Assembly: GCA_016841445.1 (NCBI GenBank)
Contig: JAENZD010000001.1
Span: 434,001 to 498,000 of the forward strand
From: Anaerolineaceae bacterium
Lineage (GTDB): Bacteria; Chloroflexota; Anaerolineae; Anaerolineales; Anaerolineaceae
DNA: 64,000 bases
Direction of reading: 5' to 3'
Shown here: positions 9,243-56,264 of the stretch, in pieces
How the letters are laid out: every line of letters begins with the position of its first letter
How positions within the stretch are numbered: the stretch's first letter is position 1
Notes under the pieces: generated by a model
Told to the model about the DNA's origin: nothing
The model's input: only the letters and a program-made list of their open reading frames with translations
Databases searched by the model: none
Program-made: the position numbers and the translations under genes

Positions 9243-11757
9243 TGCTGATCAATGCCTTAATCAATGCTAAAGTTTCAAGTTTACCGCCGGACGCTTCCTC
9301 GCCAATGGGTCCGACACAGGAGGGACAGCCATCCTCGCATTCACAGTAAGCTACCATATCATACGATTGGCGGAGCAGGTCAGCGTGAATTTCGTATAGA
9401 TTATCTGAAAGCCCCAATCCTCCAGGGATATTATCATAAACAACGACCGTTGGTTGTCCATCCCCTAGGGTTGCGTTGGGATCGTAGTGTACGCCGATAT
9501 CTTCACCATCGCACATTAGCATCAGGGGTGCCAGGCTATGGAGAACGTAGCTGAATCCGGCCATACCGCTTCGGATACGCACGCTGGTTTCTGCCTGTCG
9601 ATGGCAGGTCGGGCACAGCATGATCAAATTCTGGAGCTGGTTAGCCGTTTCAAGAGAAGTGAAGCTTCGGAAGGGTTGGATGTGGTGCACATGCAAGGGA
9701 CGTAGTGAACCGGATGTCCCACAAACCTGGCAGCGATCCCCATCGCGGGTTATGACACGTGCCCGGATCTTATCCCATTCCGGGCCGTAATCGTTCTGAT
9801 CAGAATGCCACATCATTTGGTCTTTGAGCTGATTTACTGTCTTATCATTCAGCGAAATCCAGTACCCGATTGTGTTCAGGTGGGTAGGCGGCAGGTTGAC
9901 TTCGCCACCGCCCAGGAATTCATGAGTGAACCAGCGGATCTTTCGGTAACCGACAACTTTCGTCGTAACGATAATTTCACCCAAGGATTTCGTTGCGCCT
10001 TCCACCGGGGCTTGTTTTTGAAGCAATTTTTGTTCGACCTGGGTTTCCTCCCTGGCCTGGGTATAGTAATCAATCGCTGTCTCACGAAGATAGGCTGCCC
10101 CGGCTTCCAGATCGAGAGAATCCACCAGGTAGGAGGTTCCCTCATGCAGGTAAACGGCCTCTGGGTGAACCATCCAGTAAGCACTGGCCATGTCGACCTG
10201 TCCGATCGTTTCCTGGCGGTAGGAACCCTTGACGATCAGCGTGACCTGGTCTGGCGTGGCATTCCGCAATGAAATTTCTGCTGCGGGATACTGGTCAGCC
10301 ATCCAAAAGAACCGCTCGCCCTGCTGGTGTAATTGACCGCTTTGAGACAATAATTCGAGGAACGCACGTAATCTTTCTACACTGATCGCACCGAAGCCCT
10401 CGTTGGGTTGAAAAGGCAGTTCGAAAGCCGCACAGCGGATATGTTGAAGAAGGATCAGCAGGTTATTGGGGGCAATCAATGCGCGTTCAGGGGAGCGGTC
10501 GAAAAAATATTCCGGGTGACGTGCCAGGTATTGGTCCATAGCGTTGGCTGAAGTGACAAGGATGGATAATGAGGGTGCTAATTTTCTCCCCGCGCGTCCG
10601 GCTTGCTGGCGGGTGCCGGCGATGCTTCCCGGGTAACCGATCAGCACAGATGCATCCATTCCGCCAATATCGATCCCGAGTTCAAGGGCAGAGGTCGCGA
10701 CAACACCCTGGACTTCACCGCGACGCAGGCCTTCTTCGATCGCACGGCGCTCCTTTGATAGATAACCGCTCCGGTAACCCCTGATCCGGTTGGGGTTATC
10801 CCCGGAGCTGCGCTGGCGGATGTACGTCAGGATCAGCTCGATGCTCCGCCTTGTGCGGCCAAACACGATTGTTTGAATTTTTTCTTCGATCAGTTCGCTG
10901 GCTAATAATGAACCTTCCAGCAGTGAACTTTGCCGGATACCCAGTTTTTTATCGATGAGCGGGGGATTATAGATCAGGAAATGTCGTTCACCATGGGGTG
11001 AACCATCCTGGTCAATGACTTTGACTGGTTTTTCGATCAGCCCTTCTGCCAGTTCCTTCGGGTTGGCAATCGTGGCAGAGGTCAGGATGAACTGGGGCTG
11101 GCTGCCGTAAAAACGGCTGATGCGTTTCAATCGCCGGAGGACGTTGGCCACATGAGATCCAAATATCCCCCGGTAGGCATGCATTTCGTCAATCACGATA
11201 AATCGCAGGGCGGTGAAAAAATCTTTCCAGACCGTGTGGTGGGGCAGGATGCCGGTATGGAGCATGTCCGGGTTGGTTAGAATGAGGGTTGAGTCCCGCC
11301 GGATGGCAGATCTGAGATGCTGGGGCGTATCGCCATCGTAGATATTCGCTTTGATTCTCTCCTGTTGATCAGACAGTTGTAGCAGCCTCCAAAGATTGGA
11401 TTGTTGATCCTGAGATAGGGCTTTGGTTGGGAAAAGGTACAACGCCCGTCCCTCAGGTTGTTTGATCAGGCTGTCAATTACCGGCAGGTTATAGCAGAGC
11501 GTTTTGCCGCTGGCTGTGCCGGATACGATGGCGATATTATGACCTTCATGAACAGCTTGATATGCCTGGTATTGATGGACGAACAGGGAATGGATTCCAT
11601 CCGACTTTAACGCGTTAACCAACGTTGGCTTGATCTGGCTTGGAAAATCGATCAGCTCTGGTGCTTTCTGGGATAATACACGCCATTCAACGATGTTTTC
11701 CGCTATACTGGGCTGACTTCGCCACCGGTTCAGGATTGTTTTGATCTTATTGGTCAT
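9235..11757 (-). CDS. mrfA: MrfA/YprA-like DEAD/H helicase with inserted HNH motif and DUF1998 domain
   Basis: 840 residues, about 90 longer than I recall for Bacillus MrfA. The helicase core has GTASGKT (80-86), DEMH (190-193), a C-terminal domain with TSALELGIDIGG and the motif VI stretch QQAGRAGR. The C-terminal DUF1998 region ends in the four-cysteine zinc site CECEDGCPSC (about 805-814). Between them, near 660-725, lies a complete HNH nuclease motif: CQVC, HVHH, an Asn and LCPTCHR. The helicase family moves 3' to 5' and works with MrfB in repair of mitomycin-type damage. The HNH part may be a true nuclease or a zinc-bound DNA clamp; it is not part of the MrfA I know. Confidence 0.9.
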   Translation of the reverse strand: MTNKIKTILNRWRSQPSIAENIVEWRVLSQKAPELIDFPSQIKPTLVNALKSDGIHSLFVHQYQAYQAVHEGHNIAIVSGTASGKTLCYNLPVIDSLIKQPEGRALYLFPTKALSQDQQSNLWRLLQLSDQQERIKANIYDGDTPQHLRSAIRRDSTLILTNPDMLHTGILPHHTVWKDFFTALRFIVIDEMHAYRGIFGSHVANVLRRLKRISRFYGSQPQFILTSATIANPKELAEGLIEKPVKVIDQDGSPHGERHFLIYNPPLIDKKLGIRQSSLLEGSLLASELIEEKIQTIVFGRTRRSIELILTYIRQRSSGDNPNRIRGYRSGYLSKERRAIEEGLRRGEVQGVVATSALELGIDIGGMDASVLIGYPGSIAGTRQQAGRAGRKLAPSLSILVTSANAMDQYLARHPEYFFDRSPERALIAPNNLLILLQHIRCAAFELPFQPNEGFGAISVERLRAFLELLSQSGQLHQQGERFFWMADQYPAAEISLRNATPDQVTLIVKGSYRQETIGQVDMASAYWMVHPEAVYLHEGTSYLVDSLDLEAGAAYLRETAIDYYTQAREETQVEQKLLQKQAPVEGATKSLGEIIVTTKVVGYRKIRWFTHEFLGGGEVNLPPTHLNTIGYWISLNDKTVNQLKDQMMWHSDQNDYGPEWDKIRARVITRDGDRCQVCGTSGSLRPLHVHHIQPFRSFTSLETANQLQNLIMLCPTCHRQAETSVRIRSGMAGFSYVLHSLAPLMLMCDGEDIGVHYDPNATLGDGQPTVVVYDNIPGGLGLSDNLYEIHADLLRQSYDMVAYCECEDGCPSCVGPIGEEASGGKLETLALIKALISND

Positions 11758-11857
11758 TGGATTCTTCGAATATTTGTTTTATTTATTTTAATCGGATTTA
11801 GTGTGAGTTGCAATATGTTCTGGATGAATAACATCAATTCTCAGGAAATTTAAATAG

Positions 11858-11887
11858 TTCACATCTATTAGTAAACCGCGTTATACT
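11858..11887 (+). promoter_or_regulatory. Probable promoter of the MFS gene
   Basis: TTCACA (11858-11863) and TATACT (11882-11887) are 18 bp apart and lie about 43 bp upstream of the MFS start, in the gap between divergent genes. Pattern match only. Confidence 0.4.
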
Positions 11888-11929
11888 TTAAATTTGAAGT
11901 TCGGCTTCCACATGGGAGAACTGCGTTAA

Positions 11930-13243
11930 ATGAAAAAAGTTTCAAAACGTTGGGTATTTTTGGTCCTATTTTCCTTTTTCCTATTCATCCAAGAATTCAA
12001 CCGGCTATTCCTGTCCCAAATGACGCCCGAGTTGACAGGGTTGTTCCACAGCAGCGGAATAGGTTTCCTGGGTAGAATCCCCTGGACTGCTGTTGTCGCA
12101 GCGGTTGCCTTCCTGCTTTGGGGCTATTTGTTTGACTCTTATCAACGGCGAAAATTATTCACAATTGTTGGCTTCCTCTGGTGGATGACATCATGGTTAA
12201 CAGGGATTGCCCCGACTTTCAGTACCTTCGAACTTTCAATAACAGCTGCAGCCATTCCACAGTCCAGCTCCCCCGGGATATTTTCGCTGGTCGGGGACTT
12301 TTTTAAGCCGAATGACCGGGGCAAAATATTGGGATTATTATTGATCAGCCAGCCACTTGCTTTGTTCTTTAGCACCTTACTGATGCCTGGTCTGCTGAAT
12401 TTAATTAACTGGCGGTTTCTCACATTATTCCTGGGCGGGTTTGGTATCATCTTTGGTTTGGTTGCGTACCGATTTTTTCATTCGCCCTTAAGAGGAGATA
12501 AAGAACCCGCGTTGATGGATATACCACGAATAGGTCGATACCTGTTTGATTGGAGTTCTGCAAAAGTTCATTTGAAACAAACCAGCATGATCGTTATATA
12601 TCTGCTTGGATTTTTCAGCATTATTCCATGGATTTCTATGACATCCTGGGCTGTGGAATTTCTTACCACCTCTGCAAATAATCCCGATCTCGCCATTAAT
12701 TTTCAAGATTATATCCTGCCCGGTTTGACCAGCTTAACGTTAAGTTTCCCGCTGGCTGGGTTTTTGGGGGATTTTGTATTTCAAAAAATGAAATCCGGTC
12801 GAATCCTGGTAAGCATGGCAAGTACAGCCATTTCGATCATCTCTTTGATCTTGATATTCATTGCCAGAAATACATCCGGGCTGCTGCTGCTGATATCCTT
12901 GGTAGGATTAGGGCTATCATTTTCATTTTTATGGCCGAACATCATCGCTTCGATCATGGATATCACCCTGCCCGAATTAAGGGGGTCTGCCAGTGGTGTC
13001 TATTTGTTTTTTCAAACCATTGGTGCAGTGCTCAGCCCGATTTTTGTTTCTTTGCTCAAGGACCGGATCGGTCTGATTGGATCGATAACCTGGGTTTCTG
13101 TTACCGCCTGGATAGCGTGCTTGATTTTATTGATCATTCTATACCGGCGAATCCCGGATGATATTGAACAGCTTCGGAAGCACATGGCTTACCGCAGCTA
13201 CCTCGAAATGCAGTTAAAGAACGCTTCTGTTCGGGAACGCTGA
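11930..13243 (+). CDS. Major facilitator superfamily transporter
   Basis: A 437-residue integral membrane protein with about twelve hydrophobic segments. The loop between helices 2 and 3 reads WGYLFDSYQRRK, a variant of the MFS G-x-x-x-D-R-x-G-R-R signature. Later segments include PLAGFLGDFVF and SGVYLFFQTIGAVLSPIF. The first helix is preceded by MKKVSKRW, a short positive N-terminus. GGGAGA 14 bp before the ATG serves as ribosome site. The substrate cannot be read from the sequence, and the neighbours (mrfA on the other strand, an SDR downstream) do not help. Confidence 0.88.
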   Translation: MKKVSKRWVFLVLFSFFLFIQEFNRLFLSQMTPELTGLFHSSGIGFLGRIPWTAVVAAVAFLLWGYLFDSYQRRKLFTIVGFLWWMTSWLTGIAPTFSTFELSITAAAIPQSSSPGIFSLVGDFFKPNDRGKILGLLLISQPLALFFSTLLMPGLLNLINWRFLTLFLGGFGIIFGLVAYRFFHSPLRGDKEPALMDIPRIGRYLFDWSSAKVHLKQTSMIVIYLLGFFSIIPWISMTSWAVEFLTTSANNPDLAINFQDYILPGLTSLTLSFPLAGFLGDFVFQKMKSGRILVSMASTAISIISLILIFIARNTSGLLLLISLVGLGLSFSFLWPNIIASIMDITLPELRGSASGVYLFFQTIGAVLSPIFVSLLKDRIGLIGSITWVSVTAWIACLILLIILYRRIPDDIEQLRKHMAYRSYLEMQLKNASVRER

Positions 13244-44732: not shown

Positions 44733-44763
44733 AACCCTCTCCGTTATTTTGTTGGAGAGGGTT
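44733..44763 (-). terminator. Hairpin AACCCTCTCC/GGAGAGGGTT between convergent genes
   Basis: A perfect ten-pair stem with an 11-base loop, 39 bp after the stop of the PfkB gene on the minus strand. It could end transcripts there, although no long T-run follows. Confidence 0.5.
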
Positions 44764-44801: not shown

Positions 44802-45875
44802 CTATCGTTTTACACGGGCATTCCCCTCATAGATTGCCCATACTTGATCTTCATCCATCGGCTGTCCATAGTCAGTCAACAGCGTTGCCACCATCGCACC
44901 CGTCGCCCAACCGAATTGAGACCACTTCTCTGGCGCCCACCCCTGCAGGATCGCATATAAAAACCCGCCGACAAATCCATCACCACCACCGATGCGGTCA
45001 TATACTGGGATCTCCCTGGGCTCAACCACAGTCCACTCGTCTTGAGCCAGCATTATGGATCCCCACATATGTGTGTTTGCGTTGACGACCTCGCGAAGCG
45101 TTGTCGCAAACACAGATGCGTTCGGGTAATTTTCTTTAACTCGGCGGATCATTTCCTTAAAACCTTTGATCTTATCCGATATTTCTTTTCCGCCGGCTTC
45201 AGGGCCCTTAATGCCCAGTGCTAACTGAAAATCTTCTTCGTTACCGACCAAAATATCGGATAACCCAGCGATCTGTGAAAAAACTTCACGTAATTCTTTT
45301 TTCCGGCCTGCCCAGAATGATGCCCTGTAATTCAAGTCAAAACTGATCAAGGCGCCAGATTTTTTTGCTGCTTTGGCGATCTCAAGGCAAAATTCACTGG
45401 TTTCGGGGGAAAGTGCACCAATCAACCCGGACATATGTACAATCGCTGCGCCTTCTTTTTCAAATATCCGTTCCAGGTCAAAATCCTTGACATTAAGTGT
45501 CTTTCCCACTTCACCCGCCCGGTCATTAAGAACACGGGGTCCTCTCATCCCAAAGCCGCTGTCTGCGATGTTGAATTGATGCCGGTATCCCCACGGGTTG
45601 CCCTGTGGGACATCTACACCCTCAAACTCGATATTTCTTTTTCTCAGTTCGCCCTTGATGAAATATGAAATTTCACTGTCTTTTACGAAAGTCGTTAATA
45701 ACTTGACCCTTTTACCGAGTGCTGCGGAGATATTGCCAACATTACTCTCTGCACTAGTGGATTGCATCATATACAGGTTGCTCATGTTAACAGGCTGCCT
45801 GTCAACCGGCGTGATACGCACGCCCATGCTTGTTGGAATGACCAGCGAATAGGTATATTGATCTCGAATTTTCAT
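44802..45875 (-). CDS. PfkB-family sugar-acid kinase, 2-keto-3-deoxygluconate kinase-like
   Basis: 357 residues from the ATG at 45873-45875. The PfkB signs are NVGNISAALGKRV near the N-terminus, ISFDLNYRASFW and the catalytic DRIGGGDGFVGGFLYAIL with the phosphate-accepting Asp. The DLNYR-x-x-x-W stretch is typical of KDG kinases, which make KDPG from 2-keto-3-deoxygluconate. No dehydratase that would make KDG is in the window, so another sugar acid or keto-acid is possible. It is the last gene after the LarA-like gene (10-bp gap). Confidence 0.87.
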   Translation of the reverse strand: MKIRDQYTYSLVIPTSMGVRITPVDRQPVNMSNLYMMQSTSAESNVGNISAALGKRVKLLTTFVKDSEISYFIKGELRKRNIEFEGVDVPQGNPWGYRHQFNIADSGFGMRGPRVLNDRAGEVGKTLNVKDFDLERIFEKEGAAIVHMSGLIGALSPETSEFCLEIAKAAKKSGALISFDLNYRASFWAGRKKELREVFSQIAGLSDILVGNEEDFQLALGIKGPEAGGKEISDKIKGFKEMIRRVKENYPNASVFATTLREVVNANTHMWGSIMLAQDEWTVVEPREIPVYDRIGGGDGFVGGFLYAILQGWAPEKWSQFGWATGAMVATLLTDYGQPMDEDQVWAIYEGNARVKR

Positions 45876-45885
45876 ATTAAAACCT

Positions 45886-47169
45886 CTAATCTGTGAATTT
45901 ATCTTTGCATGCCCAAAGCCCCAAGGCTGGATTGCTGATATAGAATACAACCTCTCCGTCTTCAAGCGTATTGAAACCGTTTATTAATTTTGTTGGATTG
46001 TATTTCGAAATTGCTTTATCGTAATCCATGTATAAAAATCCAGCTTTTTCAACTTCTTGCTGGTTCATTTTCTTAACGGCATAAGTGATCTTAAAACGTC
46101 CGTCGGACGAGCCATGAATTAAATGTGCTGCAACGGATTGGTTCTCCAATAAATCCTGATGGTCCTGGCAGAGTTTCAGAATATGCTCACGACCCATGTA
46201 ACCATATCTTCGAATACACAAATCGTTATCGACATCTTCCCCGAATTTTGTTACACCAGGTGCCAGAATGATCAAATCGCCATCGTCTGCAATCGCCATA
46301 CGTGTGCGGTAGATTGCCTTGTTCCCAAGCCAGGTACTCTTGAATTCAGTTTCTTCCAAATAGACCACAATCTTTTTAATGGGCTCTTCAACATACGTCA
46401 GGTTTTTCTCCTGGCTTAATTTCACAGCTTGTTCGAATAAAGCGCGGCTTCGGCCGATATAAAGCCCATGGATACGCACTGCCCCTGCGTTTTCCGATGT
46501 TACAGTCAACACATAGGTTATTGGAATGTGAGAAAGGAAACGCTTCTCTGCGTAATCAAACACTTTACGCACCGGTGAATGGTCTTTTCCCATGATGCGT
46601 TCCATGCCGAATACAGCGCCCAGCATGTGTGATTTGTTGATAATATCTGTGCCACCGCAGCCGACAAGCAGATTCTTGGTGTAATTAGCCATACCGACCA
46701 CCTCATGGGGTACGACCTGGCCAATGGAGATAATACGGTCATAGCTGCCATCCACCAGCCGTTTGTTCACCTCAACTTTGATTGGCGTGTCTATCAAACC
46801 TTCCGATATCCCAGCAATAGTCTCACCGGGTATCTCACCAATCTCGACCACATCAGTGCGCCAATGATGCACAATGAAACGGTCTTTGGGTATATCGCTG
46901 CCAAAAAACGCCTCGATCTCTTCGTTTGTCATTGGGTCGTGGGTACCCAACGCTGGCATGATGTCGACATGGCAGCTATCTTTCAACATCTCATAATACA
47001 TGGCTGTGATCACGCCTGCGCCGGAATGCATCCTCGTGATATCTGGCGGAACAAGCAGTACTTTTTTCAGACTGCTGATATCATCGGCAATTGCTTCATG
47101 AAGTGCATTTTTGATATTGATCAGGTCAATGCCATGTTCATCTGTGGCTTGACGTATTAATTCTTTCAT
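45886..47169 (-). CDS. LarA-family nickel-pincer racemase/epimerase
   Basis: 427 residues from the ATG at 47167-47169, a normal LarA length. The lactate racemase fold is seen as PPDITRMHSGAG, ALGTHDPMTNEE, VVPHEVVGMANYTKNLLVG and DIINKSHMLGAVFG. By position His77, His155, Lys165 and His181 match the catalytic His pair, the cofactor-tethering Lys and the nickel His of LarA; the 10- and 16-residue spacings between the last three are identical. The family uses the nickel-pincer nucleotide made by LarB, LarC and LarE, which are not in the window. Homologues racemise lactate or malate, or epimerise sugar acids at C2. Its neighbours here favour a sugar acid such as mannonate or gluconate. Confidence 0.9.
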   Translation of the reverse strand: MKELIRQATDEHGIDLINIKNALHEAIADDISSLKKVLLVPPDITRMHSGAGVITAMYYEMLKDSCHVDIMPALGTHDPMTNEEIEAFFGSDIPKDRFIVHHWRTDVVEIGEIPGETIAGISEGLIDTPIKVEVNKRLVDGSYDRIISIGQVVPHEVVGMANYTKNLLVGCGGTDIINKSHMLGAVFGMERIMGKDHSPVRKVFDYAEKRFLSHIPITYVLTVTSENAGAVRIHGLYIGRSRALFEQAVKLSQEKNLTYVEEPIKKIVVYLEETEFKSTWLGNKAIYRTRMAIADDGDLIILAPGVTKFGEDVDNDLCIRRYGYMGREHILKLCQDHQDLLENQSVAAHLIHGSSDGRFKITYAVKKMNQQEVEKAGFLYMDYDKAISKYNPTKLINGFNTLEDGEVVFYISNPALGLWACKDKFTD

Positions 47170-47182
47170 ATCATAAACCTTG

Positions 47183-48037
47183 CTACACGCCTGAATAAGC
47201 TGAAAATCCGCCGTCAACCGGCACAATGACACCATTGACAAAACCGGATGCTTTTTCGTCCACAAGCCACAAAAGCGTACCAATTAACTCTTCCTGCTCA
47301 CCGAAGCGTCCCATCGGGGTCATACCAATAATTTTATTCGACCTTTCGGTATATGAGCCGTCATCATTAAACAACAGCGCATGGTTTTGCTTTGTAGAAA
47401 AGAATCCCGGCGCAATGGCATTCACCCGGATACCAACCTTAGACATGTGCACCGCGAGCCATTGTGTGAAATTTGAAATGGCTGCCTTAGCACCGCTATA
47501 TGCCGGTATTTTGGTAAGGGGAGAAAATGCATTCATAGAAGAAATATTGAGAATGACAGCACCATCGATATCTATCATATCCATTGCAAAAACCTGTGTC
47601 GGAATCAGGGTACCGAGAAAATTAAGATTAAAAACAAATTCGACACCTTTTGGATCAAGATCAAAAAAAGTTGTGATCCCTTCGGTTTTTACGAGGTCTT
47701 CCTTATAAAGATATTCTTTTGTTGTTGTGCCTTTCGGGTTGTTTCCGCCTGCACCGTTGATGAGGATATTGCAAGGACCAAATTCTTTGAGGATGATATC
47801 TCTTGCTGCCTTCATGCTGTCAATGTCAAGTACGTTACACTTAACACCCAGGGCAGTGCCACCCTCCAATTTGATCTCTTGAGCTACCTTGTTGGCAGCA
47901 TCCTCGTTCAGGTCAAGAACTGCCACCTTCGCCCCGCACATCGCTAATACTTTTGCAAAATTGCTGCATAGCACACCACCGCCACCGGTTACGACGGCAG
48001 TTTTGCCCTTTAGATCGATTTGAAACGGTAAATTCAT
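47183..48037 (-). CDS. SDR oxidoreductase, D-mannonate/D-fructuronate type
   Basis: 284 residues. Standard SDR with TGGGGVLCSNFAK, INGAGGNNP, NISSMNAF and the catalytic YSGAK. The inserted loop NPKGTTTKEYLY and a second stretch FDLDPKGVEFVFNLNFLG are shared with YjmF-like D-mannonate oxidoreductases, which interconvert D-fructuronate and D-mannonate with NAD(P). A gluconate 5-dehydrogenase role is the alternative. It is 11 bp after the 6-phosphogluconate dehydrogenase gene and 13 bp before the LarA-like gene, so all three are likely one transcript. Confidence 0.88.
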   Translation of the reverse strand: MNLPFQIDLKGKTAVVTGGGGVLCSNFAKVLAMCGAKVAVLDLNEDAANKVAQEIKLEGGTALGVKCNVLDIDSMKAARDIILKEFGPCNILINGAGGNNPKGTTTKEYLYKEDLVKTEGITTFFDLDPKGVEFVFNLNFLGTLIPTQVFAMDMIDIDGAVILNISSMNAFSPLTKIPAYSGAKAAISNFTQWLAVHMSKVGIRVNAIAPGFFSTKQNHALLFNDDGSYTERSNKIIGMTPMGRFGEQEELIGTLLWLVDEKASGFVNGVIVPVDGGFSAYSGV

Positions 48038-48048
48038 CTATTCTCCTC

Positions 48049-49497
48049 TTATACCGTATAAGTAGAAGCTGAAGTTGATCCACCTTCACCAGTCCAGTTT
48101 GTGTGGAAAAACTCACCGCGCGGTTTATCGACACGTTCATAAGTATGTGCACCGAAATAATCGCGTTGTGCTTGCAGCAGGTTAGCAGGAAGGCGTTCGC
48201 TGCGGTATCCGTCATAATAATTGAGCGCAGTAGCAAATGCAGGTACCGGAACACCCTTGACCACTGCGACAGCAAGCACGTTCCGAAGGCTCTGCTGACA
48301 TTTTTCTACGGTATTTTTGAAGAACGGATCCAGCAGCAGGTTGTTTAATTTCGGATCGTTGTCATAGGCTTCTTTGATCTTTCCGAGGAATTTGCTGCGG
48401 ATGATGCATCCGCCGCGCCACATCAAAGCAATCCCGCCATAGTTCAGGTCCCAACCGTAAGTTTCGGCTGCGGCCTTCAGTAATGCATATCCTTGGGCAT
48501 ATGAAACAATTTTTGACATATACAAGGCATTTTTAATGTCCTCGATAAATGTTGTTTTATCGCCATCAAATGATGGTTTTGGACCGGTTAGGATTTTTGA
48601 CGCAGTCACACGTTCATCTTTCATCGCGGATAAAAAACGGGCATAGACTGCTTCACCAATCAAAGTAAGCGGAACCCCTTCATTAAGGGAAGAGATTGCT
48701 GCCCATTTGCCGGTGCCTTTTTGTCCGGCTGTATCGAGTATCTTGTTGACAATGGGTTGGCCGTCATCGTCTTTATAGGCAAGAATATCTCTGGTGATCT
48801 CGATCAGGTAACTGTCGAGGACACCTTTATTCCACTCTTTGAATACCTCATGCATCTCATCTGCAGTCATTCCCAGCAGATCTTTCATCAACTGGTAGGC
48901 CTCGCAAATCAACTGCATATCACCGTATTCAATGCCGTTATGAACCATCTTAACAAAATGCCCTGCACCGTCTGATCCGACCCAATCACAGCAGGGTGTC
49001 TCGTCTTCGACCTTAGCGGCAATCGCCTGAAAAATGGGCTTCACTGCTGGCCAGGCCGCAGGAGATCCGCCTGGCATGATGCTGGGGCCTTTGAGTGCGC
49101 CTTCTTCACCGCCTGATACGCCCGTGCCGATATACAGCAGACCTTTTTCTTCAACATACTTTGTTCTGCGTATCGTGTCCGGGAAATGTGAGTTGCCGCC
49201 GTCAATGATAATATCGCCTTTATCGAGATGTGGAATCAGTTTGTCGATCATGTCATCAACCGGTTTCCCCGCTTTGATCATGATCATGACTTTACGCGGC
49301 GTTGCGAGATTTTCAACCAATTCTTCAATTGAATAAGTACCAGTAATATTCTTATCTTTGGCACGCCCTTCAACAAAGTTGGTTACCTTTTCTGCGGTCC
49401 GGTTATAAACAGCAACAGAGAACCCTTTGCTTTCCATATTCATGACAAGGTTCTCGCCCATTACGGCTAGACCGATCAGTCCGATATCTGCTTTCAT
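48049..49497 (-). CDS. gnd: 6-phosphogluconate dehydrogenase, decarboxylating
   Basis: 482 residues, the long (homodimeric) form. The NADP fold starts IGLAVMGENLVMN, followed by GTGVSGGEEGALKGPSIMPGG, HFVKMVHNGIEYGD and the AALNYYDGYRSERLPANLLQAQRDYFGAHTYER-type C-terminus seen in several adjoining pieces. Active-site Lys and Asn are present in that HFVKMVHNGIEYGD stretch. It converts 6-phosphogluconate to ribulose 5-phosphate and CO2. In this locus it follows a gluconokinase and precedes an SDR, so it completes a route from gluconate to the pentose phosphate pathway. Confidence 0.96.
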   Translation of the reverse strand: MKADIGLIGLAVMGENLVMNMESKGFSVAVYNRTAEKVTNFVEGRAKDKNITGTYSIEELVENLATPRKVMIMIKAGKPVDDMIDKLIPHLDKGDIIIDGGNSHFPDTIRRTKYVEEKGLLYIGTGVSGGEEGALKGPSIMPGGSPAAWPAVKPIFQAIAAKVEDETPCCDWVGSDGAGHFVKMVHNGIEYGDMQLICEAYQLMKDLLGMTADEMHEVFKEWNKGVLDSYLIEITRDILAYKDDDGQPIVNKILDTAGQKGTGKWAAISSLNEGVPLTLIGEAVYARFLSAMKDERVTASKILTGPKPSFDGDKTTFIEDIKNALYMSKIVSYAQGYALLKAAAETYGWDLNYGGIALMWRGGCIIRSKFLGKIKEAYDNDPKLNNLLLDPFFKNTVEKCQQSLRNVLAVAVVKGVPVPAFATALNYYDGYRSERLPANLLQAQRDYFGAHTYERVDKPRGEFFHTNWTGEGGSTSASTYTV

Positions 49498-49671
49498 AAT
49501 TTTTTCCCTTTCTCTTTATATCGAAAAGTTAATTATCTTCCATTAAACATACCAGCTCGAATTATCCCAAAGTAATATTTCTTGTGATGGTTTTTCTGGA
49601 TTAATTGGATCATGTAATATATTTATTTTCATTTCTTGAAGTAGCTTTATTGATTTAAACAAGCCACCTTA

Positions 49672-51093
49672 TCATTCTAAATTGTAATAATATAGATAGT
49701 CCTCATAATGAATCTCATAGAAAGGCTTCATTCCTGGATTTGGGTAAATCTTCCGTGCATTCTTGTATTCATAATCAAATTGATCAATTCCTGGCAGCTC
49801 ACCCACAGCATTCAAGGCAAGGGCTGTTGCGCCCAGCAGTGAGGCGTTCGGATTTTCGCTCACGAGCAGTGGCCGCATCCAAATATCTGCTAACATTTGC
49901 GTCCACCTCGCAGAATTGGTGATTCCGCCAGAGAGGATGATTTCCTTGGGCTCACCGCTTTGCTCGCACAAAATTTGGTAGCACTGGTACAGGTTGAAGA
50001 GGATCCCCATTTGAACTGCAGTATACATATGTTTAAGAGTGTGGTTCGGGGCGATGTTTACCAATCCGGCCAGTCTATCTTCTCGCAAACTGGGGCAGCG
50101 CTCACCAAAAAGGAAAGGCAGGAAGGTTGGGTATGTCAACTTGGAGTCAATCGGATCCTCGAAGTCAGCGTAATCGAACTGCCCTCCTGTGAACTGGTCA
50201 AAGAACCAGTTGATGCAGTTTCCTGCGCTGGGGATGGTTGCACCAGAGATCAGGCCTTTAGCACCACCATAACACCACAAAGAGTGGTCTTCCGGCAGGA
50301 TAGGATTTTCAGTCATCATCCGAAGTGCGGCGCTGGTGCCCACAGAAAGCGTCATGATCCCTTCACGTATAGCGTAATTCCCAACCTGGTTCAGGGCGCC
50401 GTCCGGGTGGGCTGGGACAACCGGGGTGCCTTCAGGCAGTCCAAGCAGTTCTGCACCCTGACGGTTCAAGGGAGCCGTGTGTTGATAATTGACCAGTCGC
50501 CCCAGCTGTTCAGGTTTGACATCAAAATAGTCCAGGGTGAAGGGATCATAATCCAGAGTGTGGAGGTTTAGAAAGCCGGTGCCGCAATGAGTGCTGCGGG
50601 ATTCGCAGAATTCTCCGGTCAGCTTGTGGAAAATGTACCCGCCCTGGGTGACAAATCGCTTATCTGAAAGGTCGATTCCGTGGTCACGGAGGAACGACAA
50701 GACGTGCCGGGGGAAGGTTGGGTAAGGGATGCACCCTGTGCGGCAGTAAAGTTCCCTTGTGAGTTCCGCATCCTCGCGCATCTTTCGGCAGTAGCTTGCT
50801 GTCCCCGGGAAATTCCAGGAGTAAGTGACTGTCAGTGGGTTCATTGACTGATCGCAGACTGCTAAGCTGTGCCATGTACTGCAGATCGCGATCGCTTCTA
50901 TTGGCTTACCTGCCGCTATCTTTTTTCCAAGCCGGCAGACAGCTTGTAGAACCCCGTCCGTATCTGTCTTTCCCTGGTTATCATCGATTTCCGGATCGTA
51001 CCGCTCCTGGATTGTATCGATGACTCCAACCTTGCTGTCAAAGAGCATGGCTTTGGCGGAACTTGTGCTGGCTTCTAAGGCTAAGACGATCAT
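49672..51093 (-). CDS. FGGY-family carbohydrate kinase, probable gluconokinase
   Basis: 473 residues. FGGY layout: ALEASTSSAKAMLFD (ATP region), the IEAIAICSTWHSL strand, GTSAALRMM and GGITNSARWTQMLADI near the end. The family phosphorylates gluconate, xylulose, ribulose or glycerol. Linkage to 6-phosphogluconate dehydrogenase makes gluconate the best guess. It starts 40 bp after the GH13 stop, and a 174-bp gap separates it from gnd, which could hold a second promoter. Confidence 0.88.
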   Translation of the reverse strand: MIVLALEASTSSAKAMLFDSKVGVIDTIQERYDPEIDDNQGKTDTDGVLQAVCRLGKKIAAGKPIEAIAICSTWHSLAVCDQSMNPLTVTYSWNFPGTASYCRKMREDAELTRELYCRTGCIPYPTFPRHVLSFLRDHGIDLSDKRFVTQGGYIFHKLTGEFCESRSTHCGTGFLNLHTLDYDPFTLDYFDVKPEQLGRLVNYQHTAPLNRQGAELLGLPEGTPVVPAHPDGALNQVGNYAIREGIMTLSVGTSAALRMMTENPILPEDHSLWCYGGAKGLISGATIPSAGNCINWFFDQFTGGQFDYADFEDPIDSKLTYPTFLPFLFGERCPSLREDRLAGLVNIAPNHTLKHMYTAVQMGILFNLYQCYQILCEQSGEPKEIILSGGITNSARWTQMLADIWMRPLLVSENPNASLLGATALALNAVGELPGIDQFDYEYKNARKIYPNPGMKPFYEIHYEDYLYYYNLE

Positions 51094-51133: not shown

Positions 51134-52822
51134 TTATTGTGTCAGGTCAAGGATGAAATACTGCCAGGGATCAACGATATCTGGCAGAGGATATTCACTA
51201 AACGCACCATCTGCATCAAACGACATCGGTTCAAATTCACCCTCACCCAACAAAGTTGAAAGCTGATAGTCTCCAGATAATGGGCTGGCTTCAATCGATA
51301 GGGTGCAGCCAGAGATTTCCAGGTCGCTGAGGTTAGCTATAACCAGAAGTGTTTGTTCCCCATCCATTCGCAGGATAGGATAAATTTGCCGGCAGTTCGA
51401 TGTGAGCGGCTGGTATTCTCCTGAGCTCAAAGCGGGGTACTGGTTTCTTAACTGGACCAGCATCCGGTAATGGTTCAGGAGTGAGGTTGGATCCTCATCT
51501 TGCAAGGCGACATTGAATTCACCAAAATTGCTGTTGAGGGGTTCCCAGGGCGTACCCTTCGTGAAACCCCCGCCAGGCTCTCCAGCCCACTGCATGGGCG
51601 TACGGATCAATTCGTCTGGTTTGCTCCCGACCATGCCAATCTCCTCACCATAATAAATGAAGGGCGTACCCGGGCCGGTTAGGTAGACAAATGCTGCCAT
51701 CTTGGCTTTCGCCATATCCCCATTGTAAAAGGATATCACGCGTTGCTGGTCATGGTTGGATAGGAATGTGCTGAAGTTCATATCCGGGAAGTATGCGAGG
51801 ATATCCAGGTAGGATTTGGTGATGCGCGGGCCATTCGGGGTATAGACCCCGCCTTTGATATCTTCTGCCAGGTCGAACATGAACAGTGAATCCATGCCCT
51901 GGCTGTATTTTGCAGTTACAAATAAACCAGTCCAGACTTCCCCTACAGTAAACGCTTCCGGATTAACCTGCTTGTAGAACGAACGCCACTCTTCAAACCA
52001 TTGGATGGTTGCTGGGATATCTTGCTGCGCAGCGCCATCGGCAAATAAGTAACGGGCAGCGTCAACGCGAAAACCATCTACGCCGATCTCTTCCAGCCAG
52101 AATTTCGAAACCTGCATCATTTCAGCGCTAACAGCCGGGTTGTCGTAATTGAGATCCGGCATACCGCTCCAGAACACACCGTAGTAATACATATCGTTAG
52201 TGGCATTGAAGTGCCAGGAATCCGAGTTAATTGGACCGGGAATTCGTGGGTCGATTTCAGACCAAACATACCAGGTATGGAAAGGTGATGAAGTGTCAGT
52301 TGATGCCTGGAACCAGGCATGCTGGTCTGAGGTGTGGTTGAGGACCAGGTCGATGATGATTTTGATGCCGCGTTTATTCACTTCTTCCAAAAGCTGTTTG
52401 AAATCCTCCATTGTGCCGTAGTCGCTGTTGACGGCGTAGTAATCTGTGACATCATAACCGTGGTAGGAGGGTGAGGGGTTGATCGGCATCAGCCAGATCC
52501 CGCCGATCCCCAGGTCGGTGGTGGTTTCCGGATCGCCGTCATTGAGATAGTCGAGTGCCTGGATGATGCCCTGGAAGTCGCCGATACCGTCACCATCACT
52601 ATCCTTAAAGCTCCGAACGAATATTTCATAAAAGACGATATCCTTCCACCACTCAACAGGTTCTGGCTCGGGTGTTGGCGTGGGCGAAGGCATTGCAGTT
52701 GGGGTGTGTGTTGGAGTCAGTGGAGAGGGCGAAATGGTAGGGCTTTGGCTGATCCGACTGCATGATGTGATTAATATCAAAACAATCGTCAAAAGGATTG
52801 GTTTTTTTTGTAAGACTTTCAT
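51134..52822 (-). CDS. Lipoprotein alpha-amylase (glycoside hydrolase family 13)
   Basis: 562 residues from the ATG at 52820-52822. Lipobox LITSC, then a Thr/Pro-rich stalk of about 40 residues. The GH13 barrel starts VFYEIFVRSFKDSDGDGIGD. Catalytic and binding motifs are IIIDLVLNHT, GFRVDAARYLF (nucleophile Asp), VGEVWTG (acid Glu) and FLSNHDQQR. The small C-terminal domain is beta-rich. It is anchored outside the cell and cleaves alpha-glucans; exact specificity is unclear. A minus-strand TATAAT is at 52856-52861. Confidence 0.94.
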   Translation of the reverse strand: MKVLQKKPILLTIVLILITSCSRISQSPTISPSPLTPTHTPTAMPSPTPTPEPEPVEWWKDIVFYEIFVRSFKDSDGDGIGDFQGIIQALDYLNDGDPETTTDLGIGGIWLMPINPSPSYHGYDVTDYYAVNSDYGTMEDFKQLLEEVNKRGIKIIIDLVLNHTSDQHAWFQASTDTSSPFHTWYVWSEIDPRIPGPINSDSWHFNATNDMYYYGVFWSGMPDLNYDNPAVSAEMMQVSKFWLEEIGVDGFRVDAARYLFADGAAQQDIPATIQWFEEWRSFYKQVNPEAFTVGEVWTGLFVTAKYSQGMDSLFMFDLAEDIKGGVYTPNGPRITKSYLDILAYFPDMNFSTFLSNHDQQRVISFYNGDMAKAKMAAFVYLTGPGTPFIYYGEEIGMVGSKPDELIRTPMQWAGEPGGGFTKGTPWEPLNSNFGEFNVALQDEDPTSLLNHYRMLVQLRNQYPALSSGEYQPLTSNCRQIYPILRMDGEQTLLVIANLSDLEISGCTLSIEASPLSGDYQLSTLLGEGEFEPMSFDADGAFSEYPLPDIVDPWQYFILDLTQ

Positions 52823-52855
52823 GCATAACTCCATAGACTAACGATCATGGAAATT

Positions 52856-53416: not shown

Positions 53417-55870
53417 TTATATAAAGATCACGCCATTGGAATCATCGGAGGATGCTAACATTGTGGCAACGCCGACCACTTCAATGCCGTCAATCAGTTC
53501 TTCACGTTTGATGCCCATCAGGTCCATCGACATCTGGCAGGCCTGGATGCGGACGCCGTTGTCGATTGCCATTTGAAGCATTTCTGGCAGGGAATCAACA
53601 TTTTTCTTCTTCATGATTCCCTTGATCATAGCTGTCCCCAAACCGGCCATATGCATTTGGCTCAATTTAGCTTTTTTGGTGCCGCGAGGCATCATCCAAC
53701 TAAACATGCGCTCGATCAGGTTCTTGTTAACATGGACATGATCGTTTTTCCGTAATAAATTCAAGCCCCAGAAGGTGAAGAACATGGATGCCTCTCGTCC
53801 GGAAGCGATCACACCGTTGGCGATGATACAACCTGCTATGGCTTTGTCCAAATCGCCGGAGAAGATCACCATGGTTTTATTTTTCCCTAAAGCGGCACTT
53901 TCTGCTGCTGGCTTTCCTGCACCTTTTTGGATCTTGGCGACGATCACGCCGTTGTCCGAATCCAGCGACAGCAAGCGGTTCCCGGTTGATTTCGCCCACG
54001 CTTCCACATCACTGGTGAAGCCATAATCGGTTGCCTGGACGCTGACGATATCACCATCTTCAACTTCTTTGATCTTGTTATAAAGCTTTAGGATCGGACC
54101 AGGACACTGTAAACCGCAGGCATCGATTGTGAATTCGTTTCCGGAAATCAATGCGGCAGGTGGTATCTCTTTGATCTCCTCCCGGCTGTTGATGGAAACA
54201 TTTTCAAATACATCGAAGTTTGATTGGCGGCCAACCGCATGGGAATAGGTCTTGTATCCCCCGGTCAGGTTGTAAGCTTCGAACCCTAAATGGTTCAGAA
54301 CCCGGGAGGCAAAATACGAGCGCTGCCCGGTTTGACAGTAGAGCAGGACAGGGCGGTCTTTTGGGATCTCGTTGATATTCTGCCTGATGCTCTGCAGGGG
54401 GATATTTATCGAACCATCGATTGCCCCTAATGCTAATTCTTCGGGCAGGCGAGCATCGACAATCGTGATGCTGGAACGATCCAGCTTATCAACCTGATCC
54501 CAGGTCATGACCTGGGCATCACCTCTAAGAATATTTGCTGCGGTGAAACCAATCAAATTGACCGGGTCACGCGAGGAACTGAAGGGCGGTGCGTAAGACA
54601 GTTCCAGTTCTTCAAGATCAAAAACTGTCAATCCGGCTTGCATGGCCGTAGCCATCACATCGATACGTTTATCCACACCTTCGATACCAACCGCCTGGGC
54701 ACCAAGGATTTTTCCTTCAGCGTTATAAAGCATTTTAAATGCCATTGGTGAAGCACCAGGGTAATAACCGGCATGGTTGGAGACATGGATAATGACAGAA
54801 GAGAAGGGGATATTGACTTGCTCCAGTGATTTAGAATTCATGCCAACAGAAGCCACTGTCAGGTCGAAAACTTTAACCACGGAGGTGCCAACGACACCAT
54901 TAAAAGCAGCAACATGACCCGTGATGTGATCCGCTACAACGCGTCCCTGCCGGCTGGCAGGACCTGCCAGCGCCAGTGAGGTTGGTTCACCGGTTAATTG
55001 GGATGTGACTTCAGCCGCATCACCGACAGCATAGATGTCAGGGTCAGAGGTTTGCATATGTGCGTTGGTTTTAATTGTCCCACGCACGCCAAGGTCCAAT
55101 CCTGCCTCTTTGGCTAATTGGTTCTCAGGACGGACACCGATGGAAAGGATGACCATCTCGGTATCGACACTGCGTCCACTGTTAAGGTCTACTTTCAGCC
55201 AACCTTCGTTGCCGTCGCTGATCCCTTTCAAACCATCACCCAGGGCTAGACGGATCTTCTTAAATGTAAGGTGCTGGTGCACAAGCGCAGCCATCTCATA
55301 ATCAATGGGTGCCATCACCTGGTTCAACAGCTCAATTAAGGTCACCTGGACGCCGCGATGCTTTAGATTCTCTGCAATCTCTAGACCGATGAATCCGCCG
55401 CCAACGACCACAGCGTGGACTGGTTTCTTTTGATCCATAAAGGCTTTGATCTTGTCCATATCCGGCAGGTTGCGCAGTGTGAAAACGCCATCTAAATCAA
55501 CGCCGGGCAGTGGGGGAACGATCGGTGCGGCACCAGGAGACAGAACTAATTTGTCATACGATTCTTCGTATGGACGACCAGTCTCGAGATCCAGCACAGT
55601 AACAGATTTCGCCTCACGGTTGATCGCTTTGACCTCGTGCCTGACACGTGATTCGATATTCAGCATCGCTTTCAGGCTTTCAGGAGTGACAACCAGCAGT
55701 TTCTCCCGATCTTCGATCACTCCACCTATATGATACGGTAAGCCGCAGTTCGCAAAAGAGATGTAAGGGCTGCGCTCCAGCATGATGATCTCAGCGCTTT
55801 CATCCATCCGTCGTAACCGGGCTGCGGTGCTGGCCCCACCTGCCACACCACCTACGATAATAGTTTTCAT
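53417..55870 (-). CDS. CoA-disulfide reductase fused to rhodanese, TusA and DsrE domains
   Basis: 817 residues from the ATG at 55868-55870. Residues 1-445 are a flavin NAD(P)H disulfide reductase (IIVGGVAGGASTAARLR) with the single active Cys in SFANCGLPYHIGG, as in CoA-disulfide reductases. A rhodanese domain (about 455-545) has CQTGQRS. A TusA domain (about 575-645) has DACGLQCPGPILKLYNKI. The last 150 residues are DsrE-like, with CQMSMDLMGI near the end. All four predicted sulfur-carrying Cys are present. The fusion probably reduces persulfide or polysulfide and passes sulfur between its own domains in the cytosol. A good terminator follows. Confidence 0.93.
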   Translation of the reverse strand: MKTIIVGGVAGGASTAARLRRMDESAEIIMLERSPYISFANCGLPYHIGGVIEDREKLLVVTPESLKAMLNIESRVRHEVKAINREAKSVTVLDLETGRPYEESYDKLVLSPGAAPIVPPLPGVDLDGVFTLRNLPDMDKIKAFMDQKKPVHAVVVGGGFIGLEIAENLKHRGVQVTLIELLNQVMAPIDYEMAALVHQHLTFKKIRLALGDGLKGISDGNEGWLKVDLNSGRSVDTEMVILSIGVRPENQLAKEAGLDLGVRGTIKTNAHMQTSDPDIYAVGDAAEVTSQLTGEPTSLALAGPASRQGRVVADHITGHVAAFNGVVGTSVVKVFDLTVASVGMNSKSLEQVNIPFSSVIIHVSNHAGYYPGASPMAFKMLYNAEGKILGAQAVGIEGVDKRIDVMATAMQAGLTVFDLEELELSYAPPFSSSRDPVNLIGFTAANILRGDAQVMTWDQVDKLDRSSITIVDARLPEELALGAIDGSINIPLQSIRQNINEIPKDRPVLLYCQTGQRSYFASRVLNHLGFEAYNLTGGYKTYSHAVGRQSNFDVFENVSINSREEIKEIPPAALISGNEFTIDACGLQCPGPILKLYNKIKEVEDGDIVSVQATDYGFTSDVEAWAKSTGNRLLSLDSDNGVIVAKIQKGAGKPAAESAALGKNKTMVIFSGDLDKAIAGCIIANGVIASGREASMFFTFWGLNLLRKNDHVHVNKNLIERMFSWMMPRGTKKAKLSQMHMAGLGTAMIKGIMKKKNVDSLPEMLQMAIDNGVRIQACQMSMDLMGIKREELIDGIEVVGVATMLASSDDSNGVIFI

Positions 55871-56264
55871 TTGAAACACTCCTTAAAAGAACGAGAGAAA
55901 CTCATTCCATAAAATCTATTTGTGACAAATTTCACCCAATTATACCACTATTAGATCAAAGCAATAAGTCATGAATCAACACATATAGCAAGTTTCGCTG
56001 TCCATGCTATAAGATTTTTTCTTTACTTGTTTATAAATTAAGCCATGTCATCAAATTGACCATGCGGTTACCTTTGGGATTAAAAATTGTTTGCGTTCCC
56101 TGAAATGTCCATAATTTTTAGTCATTCATGCGGTACAGTAAATTAAACAGAGCCCCTTGTTCTATTGGATTCGTTATTTTCTGGGATAAAATCAAATGGG
56201 TTTTCTGAATCACGCTTTTTTGAGGCTGACCTAGTGATTTTATGAAAGGTTCATACATTTAATT
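55871..56264 (+). other. Intergenic stretch between divergent genes
   Basis: A/T-rich, no gene, tRNA or strong hairpin is seen. It must hold the promoters of the oxidoreductase and the MFS remnant, but no convincing -35/-10 pair was found. Confidence 0.5.

Follow-up and report, generated by a model that had tools for sequence, protein, structure and literature searches.

Closest described systems and the Anaerolineaceae locus

A route in which mannonate is epimerized to gluconate, followed by gluconokinase and 6-phosphogluconate dehydrogenase (Gnd), was proposed for Thermotoga (Rodionova 2012, as cited in PMC6978723). Measurements of mannonate/gluconate epimerase (GntE) activity followed in 2020 for proteins of LarA groups 19 and 20 from Thermotoga maritima and Corynebacterium glutamicum, in work that offered a hexonate substrate for group 18 as a hypothesis only (PMC7583248), and a eukaryotic GntE was added later (PMC11770544). 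A pectin locus of T. maritima with the same kind of gene set has been described together with regulon data (PMC3750489), and a pathway of Lactobacillus suebicus likewise links mannonate to 6-phosphogluconate, differing in that phosphorylation comes first and that its genes were not identified (PMC6978723). Here we describe a related locus, containing a group 18 LarA homolog, in an Anaerolineaceae bacterium (assembly GCA_016841445.1). It lies in a 64,000-nucleotide stretch of contig JAENZD010000001.1 (positions 434,001 to 498,000), referred to below as the window.

Five minus-strand genes fill positions 44802 to 51093 of the window. In order, they encode an FGGY-family sugar kinase (49672 to 51093), the decarboxylating 6-phosphogluconate dehydrogenase Gnd (48049 to 49497), a predicted short-chain dehydrogenase/reductase (SDR)-type fructuronate reductase/D-mannonate oxidoreductase of the UxuB type (47183 to 48037), the LarA homolog (45886 to 47169), and a PfkB-family kinase (44802 to 45875), with intergenic gaps of 174, 11, 13, and 10 bp. 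This order, the common direction, and the gaps had been reported in an initial annotation of the sequence and are borne out by the open reading frame (ORF) coordinates. The last two genes are given from their ATG codons; alternative TTG starts in the ORF list would extend the LarA ORF to 47283 and the PfkB ORF to 45965. Families were assigned with Pfam, and NCBIfam models were judged by their curated cutoffs. Gnd (Pfam 6PGD) scored 782 bits against a cutoff of 427 for TIGR00873, the SDR (adh_short) scored 444.5 bits against 281 for NF006132, and the LarA homolog (Lar_N) passed NF052594. The initial family calls for these three proteins were therefore upheld by both resources and that for PfkB by Pfam (PfkB), while the naming of the FGGY protein (FGGY_N/FGGY_C) as a gluconokinase was not: it scored 189 bits against a cutoff of 649 (648.55) for the gluconokinase model TIGR01314 and 165 bits against the XylB model.

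It seems likely that D-fructuronate derived from hexuronates enters the pentose phosphate pathway through the products of a Clostridial-type cassette (gnd, the SDR, group 18 LarA, and PfkB) to which the FGGY kinase has been added. In this scheme, the SDR would reduce fructuronate to D-mannonate; the LarA homolog, passing a hydride to a nickel-pincer nucleotide (NPN), would convert mannonate to D-gluconate by inversion at C2; an operon kinase (here PfkB, FGGY, or both) would phosphorylate O6; and Gnd would then yield ribulose-5-phosphate, CO2, and NADPH. All substrates, the order of epimerization and phosphorylation, and the loading of the cofactor are what we infer. The initial annotation had drawn the same path from fructuronate through mannonate, gluconate, and 6-phosphogluconate to ribulose-5-phosphate, and it is the best-supported reading in view of the gene families, the GntE-like fold and residues, the related loci, and the missing UxuA match described below. 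Its presentation as a new bypass gives way to the Thermotoga precedent. The bypass as such is already known; as far as our literature searches show, what is new is the variant with group 18 LarA and PfkB and the gap in cofactor genes.

The resemblance to the T. maritima locus (gnd, uxaE, uxaD, gntE, and gntK) extends to gnd, a reductase, a LarA-type epimerase, a kinase, and the reaction logic. T. maritima also has a kdgA-kdgK-uxuB-uxuA set (PMC3750489), whereas the window's genome lacks a UxuA match and its locus carries a PfkB kinase. If the proposed pathway is correct, hexuronates would be converted to ribulose-5-phosphate redox-neutrally, as stated for the L. suebicus variant (PMC6978723), and plant-derived uronic acids would supply pentose-phosphate sugars in this bacterium.

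The LarA homolog is a putative hexonate epimerase of group 18

The LarA homolog matched NF052594, "nickel-dependent putative hexonate epimerase," over nearly its full length and with 638.5 bits against a cutoff of 500, placing it as a putative hexonate epimerase in LarA homolog (LarAH) group 18, a group defined by sequence. In the alignment with 4nar, the NPN-binding residues R46, K165, and H181 (ATG numbering; R75, K184, and H200 in LarA) and the catalytic residues D43, H77, H155, and K284 (D72, H108, H174, and K298 of LarA) were present. All of them were identical in 78/78 aligned proteins, that is, the window protein and 77 of 80 relatives, the other three having LarA sequences shorter than 380 amino acids and being left out of the alignment and the tree. 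An EV/S loop and a tryptophan in alpha-11 are given for LarA groups 18, 19, and 20 (PMC7583248). Both are kept in the window protein, as E156-V157 after the catalytic His (Glu in 78/78 and Val in 77/78 proteins) and as W280. The residue before the catalytic Lys, Asn283, is Asn in all 78 group 18 proteins and Gly in GntE2, and Arg242 and Arg290 are conserved in group 18, the corresponding residues being Glu in 18/29 and 26/29 LarA homologs of the window's class, respectively.

The AlphaFold2 model of the protein (mean predicted local distance difference test [pLDDT] score of 92) was nearest to 4nar, GntE2 of T. maritima (Z score of 44.9 over 395 residues, 26% identity). GntE2 has the same NPN-binding and catalytic residues but is a group 20 protein (LarAH20). 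Lactate racemase structures gave Z scores of about 30 to 33 and malate racemase structures about 25 to 26. The homolog also matched lactate and malate racemase models weakly, at 32 to 64 bits, and could on that ground be taken for one of these enzymes. The cutoffs of those models are 460 to 500 and the hexonate model gave 638 bits; since the loop residues and the closest structure also resemble GntE, we rejected a lactate or malate racemase identity, which is scarcely credible.

Gnd and PfkB recur beside group 18 LarA

A query-based scan of genome contigs gave 83 confirmed relatives, of which the best 80 supplied the loci for a comparison of gene neighborhoods; because of this selection, the set leans toward close relatives. 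Their group 18 label refers to 52 to 67% identity of the best segment, with model scores for two loci only (L111, 609; L117, 644). Neighbors were counted by tblastn within 6 kb of LarA. Gene content was also surveyed in 48 group 18 genomes, hand-picked from the 80 loci mostly for longer flanks and without random sampling, the other 32 loci being omitted, and in nine genomes of the window's class, its own included, chosen for an NF052594 match. Nearly all of the 48 are labeled metagenome-assembled genomes, and their counts stand without a background set of Clostridia lacking group 18.

Gnd was found in 61/80 loci, PfkB (at least 55% identity) in 51/80, and both in 49/80. UxaC (7/80) and Eda (3/80) were rare, and UxuA was found in none of the 80. 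The picture was similar among the 44 loci with 5 kb on both sides of LarA, 35 of which had Gnd, 31 PfkB, and 6 the SDR. The gene set in which the initial annotation had placed LarA, and for which a check of LarA relatives had been suggested, recurs in part: Gnd and PfkB do, and the FGGY kinase (3/80) and the SDR (10/80) seldom do.

In the loci richest in pathway genes, membership is kept while the order is shuffled. The orders include Gnd-PfkB-SDR-LarA-UxaC (L044), SDR-LarA-Gnd-PfkB-UxaC (L100), PfkB-Gnd-SDR-LarA-Eda-UxaC (L112), SDR-PfkB-Gnd-LarA (L117), SDR-PfkB-LarA with UxaC opposed (L109), and SDR-Gnd-LarA-UxaC with PfkB opposed (L045). This shuffling points to a shared pathway and not just to the common descent of a single block. 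The partners of group 18 LarA narrow its possible substrates and point to a candidate kinase.

Two further kinds of neighbor were seen. A PHP-domain protein is encoded on the LarA strand and no more than 6 kb away in 34/80 loci, frequently in the space separating LarA from gnd (for example, at 11254 to 12102 of L046); its best model is 3',5'-nucleoside bisphosphate phosphatase, at 198 bits against a cutoff of 400. In L075, a glycoside hydrolase family 4 (GH4)-like glycosidase gene (11588 to 13003) and Opp-type transporter genes, recognized by eye, follow LarA. The GH4 protein is ambiguous as a pointer to uronides: its family model is "alpha-galactosidase," and 6-phospho-glucosidases and an alpha-galacturonidase are among its structural matches.

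PfkB, rather than FGGY, as the candidate conserved hexonate kinase

The initial annotation had made the FGGY protein the pathway kinase and given PfkB no role, and the comparison of loci indicates the opposite. FGGY kinases detected near LarA with the window protein as the tblastn query (E value of 1e-8) were confined to three loci, L111 (49% identity), L043 (29%), and L049 (27%), and close homologs (46 to 50% identity) occurred in only 2/48 group 18 genomes. On these counts, we rejected FGGY as the conserved kinase. No protein in 57 genomes exceeded the TIGR01314 cutoff (best, 600 bits), but the cutoff is strict, and FGGY gluconokinases may be present nonetheless. P-loop gluconokinase did not exceed its cutoff in any of the 48 related genomes or in the window's genome and was present in 6/8 class relatives. 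A gene of the 2-keto-3-deoxy-6-phosphogluconate (KDPG) aldolase family lies near both close FGGY homologs (L111, 1416 to 5722; genome G345, contig 33, 3327 to 6959), which may hint at an acceptor other than gluconate.

Since PfkB accompanies LarA and Gnd and FGGY does not, PfkB is our preferred candidate for the hexonate kinase that is conserved with LarA. It falls below every NCBIfam cutoff. Its best matches are models for a KDPG-aldolase/sugar-kinase fusion and for 2-keto-3-deoxygluconate (KDG) kinase, with 96 bits (cutoff, 440) and 54 bits (cutoff, 400) for two KDG/2-keto-3-deoxygalactonate kinase models and 29 bits (cutoff, 400) for NF052444. Its predicted structure (mean pLDDT score of 84, with low confidence at residues 107 to 124) was nearest to T. 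maritima KDG kinase 2afb (Z score of 39.8, root mean square deviation of 2.1, 322 residues aligned). With the KDG kinases 2afb and 1v19 it has in common the PfkB fold and an NYR segment, the arginine of which has a substrate role in KDG kinase; identity is about 24%. KDG kinases transfer phosphate to O6 of six-carbon sugar acids, and gluconate or mannonate would therefore be a plausible acceptor for PfkB. Across 27 aligned proteins of the PfkB group, a conserved stretch departs from KDG kinase in the part that covers the sugar site of that enzyme. Its conserved motifs are PWGxRHQFNIAD and RGPRVxNDRAGEV, lying partly in the low-confidence residues. Unlike KDG kinases, the window PfkB group is tied to Gnd and rarely to KDPG aldolase. 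Our literature searches found neither an assay of a member of this group nor a report of a PfkB-family gluconate or mannonate kinase.

The kinase might also act before the epimerase, with PfkB or FGGY making 6-phosphomannonate and the LarA homolog epimerizing it to 6-phosphogluconate. Extracts of L. suebicus showed both activities, mannonate being phosphorylated before epimerization (PMC6978723), group 18 LarA is linked to PfkB more often than to any other kinase (51/80 loci), and the group 18 Asn283 and the conserved Arg242 and Arg290, two arginines that may or may not face the substrate, could be read in the same sense. However, the characterized relatives of LarA use the free acid (PMC7583248), and the authors of the L. 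suebicus study prefer a GntK-like mannonate kinase (PMC6978723). We hold phosphorylation before epimerization to be unlikely, if credible. The corresponding proposal, that PfkB and group 18 LarA are the genes behind the mannonate kinase and 6-phosphomannonate 2-epimerase activities of L. suebicus, is equally doubtful. If it were true, it would give PfkB kinases a new function and the LarA superfamily a phosphorylated substrate, and the route would be widespread in Clostridia of guts and digesters, often in genomes that lack two of the known cofactor genes.

Uronate and pentose phosphate genes across genomes

The window's genome contains UxaC. In the search for uxuA that the initial annotation had suggested, UxuA found no match in this genome, as would be expected if mannonate is epimerized rather than dehydrated; UxaE and mannonate dehydratases of the enolase superfamily other than UxuA were not searched for. 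Among the 48 group 18 genomes, UxaC was present in 39, UxuA in 11, and Zwf in 7. Gnd lies beside LarA in 38/48 genomes, and 33 of these 38 are without Zwf, which normally supplies 6-phosphogluconate.

Several other observations count against the proposed conversion of fructuronate to ribulose-5-phosphate through mannonate and gluconate. The UxuB-type SDR is near LarA in only 10/80 loci, and neither Gnd nor PfkB is near LarA in 17/80. The window's own genome has one Zwf. T. maritima, the closest precedent, is described as failing to grow when given only gluconate, glucuronate, or galacturonate (PMC3750489), and the published work that we examined, as far as consulted, gave no measured activity for a group 18 enzyme. 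The statement in the initial annotation that the locus lacks a dehydratase and an aldolase holds with respect to the aldolase in the locus itself, but the genome has one KDPG-aldolase-family gene (PF01081) elsewhere, in another sugar locus, and the family is present in 33/48 related genomes.

The aldolase genes bear on a further explanation, in which PfkB is an ordinary KDG kinase in a mixed Entner-Doudoroff-type route and LarA balances the gluconate and mannonate pools. The fold and best matches of PfkB are those of KDG kinases, and PF01081 aldolases in the window's genome and in related genomes, as well as Eda near LarA in three loci, would fit such a route. The counts for UxuA (0/80 loci and 11/48 genomes) do not: PfkB lies beside LarA in 33 genomes; UxuA is missing from 25 of these, and in 11 of the 25 PF01081 is missing as well. 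Moreover, Gnd is the commonest partner, and PfkB scores far below the KDG-kinase cutoffs. We consider this explanation quite improbable.

Two nickel cofactor genes were not found in many genomes with LarA

The remaining difficulty for the proposed pathway concerns the cofactor. The window's genome (98.85% complete) encodes three LarA homologs but had no match to LarC (PF01969) and only three subthreshold matches to LarE (TIGR00268; best, 35.5 bits against a cutoff of 150); LarB, the third of the known NPN-synthesis proteins, was not searched for. Both LarC and LarE were also missing in five of the eight class relatives with LarA matches, two of the same genus (G243 and G263), one of the same family (G202), and two of the same order (G130 and G164), and both were present in G253, G271, and G289. 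Among the 48 related genomes, LarC was found in 21 and LarE in 17, all among the 21, leaving 27 with neither.

Genome incompleteness is unlikely to account for this gap by itself: a 15% miss rate would leave at least 27/48 genomes without both with a probability of about 5e-11, and a 30% rate with one of 1e-4, taking the genomes as independent and with their completeness not given. The LarA homolog might be inactive for want of NPN, or might use another cofactor or imported NPN, a possibility compatible with the other readings. It would account for the failure to find LarC, or LarE above its cutoff, in the window's genome, in the five class relatives, and in 27/48 related genomes. On the other hand, the identity of the NPN-binding residues in 78/78 proteins argues for selection on NPN binding, and LarC is present in 21/48 genomes; we think this explanation unlikely. 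Because the NPN residues are unchanged, import of NPN or an unrecognized route of NPN synthesis seems more likely than loss of function. The literature searched, as far as consulted, contained no report of LarA without LarBCE, and LarA homologs in genomes lacking recognizable LarC and LarE prompt the question whether the cofactor is shared or made by an unknown NPN route.

The cassette was probably gained from a Clostridium-like donor

NF052594 was exceeded in 1/298 genomes sampled from the window's class, the window's own; matches to the model with an E value of 0.001 or better occurred in 198/298, and in the remaining 197 they fell short of the cutoff. The titles of the best 80 of 83 relatives name Bacillota or its subgroups, mostly Clostridia. 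In a tree of the 78 group 18 proteins, 29 LarA homologs of the class, and the two other LarA homologs of the window's genome, the window protein falls inside the group 18 set (clade support, 0.78), beside L075 and L083 (local support, 0.92), and the window Gnd is 81% identical to Gnd of these same two loci. Because only the window's own genome passes the cutoff in the class sample and the 80 relatives are Bacillota, the cassette was probably acquired from a Clostridium-like donor, the direction being deduced from these distributions. A stray contig in the assembly was judged unlikely, as the locus lies on a 1.8-Mb contig; genome contamination is listed as 4.6%.

Adjacent features

An inverted repeat 3' of pfkB on the minus strand (44734 to 44762), noted by reading the sequence and located by an exact match, is a possible transcript end that is absent from the terminator-scan list. 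Scans for promoters (12 sites versus 10.2 expected) and terminators (3 sites versus 6.7 expected) were uninformative. On the same strand as the locus, 40 bp upstream of the FGGY kinase gene, lies an alpha-amylase-family gene (51134 to 52834), the product of which has a lipoprotein-like start by eye. Farther along, positions 53417 to 55879 encode an 820-amino-acid fusion of a pyridine nucleotide-disulfide oxidoreductase with rhodanese, TusA, and DsrE-like domains.

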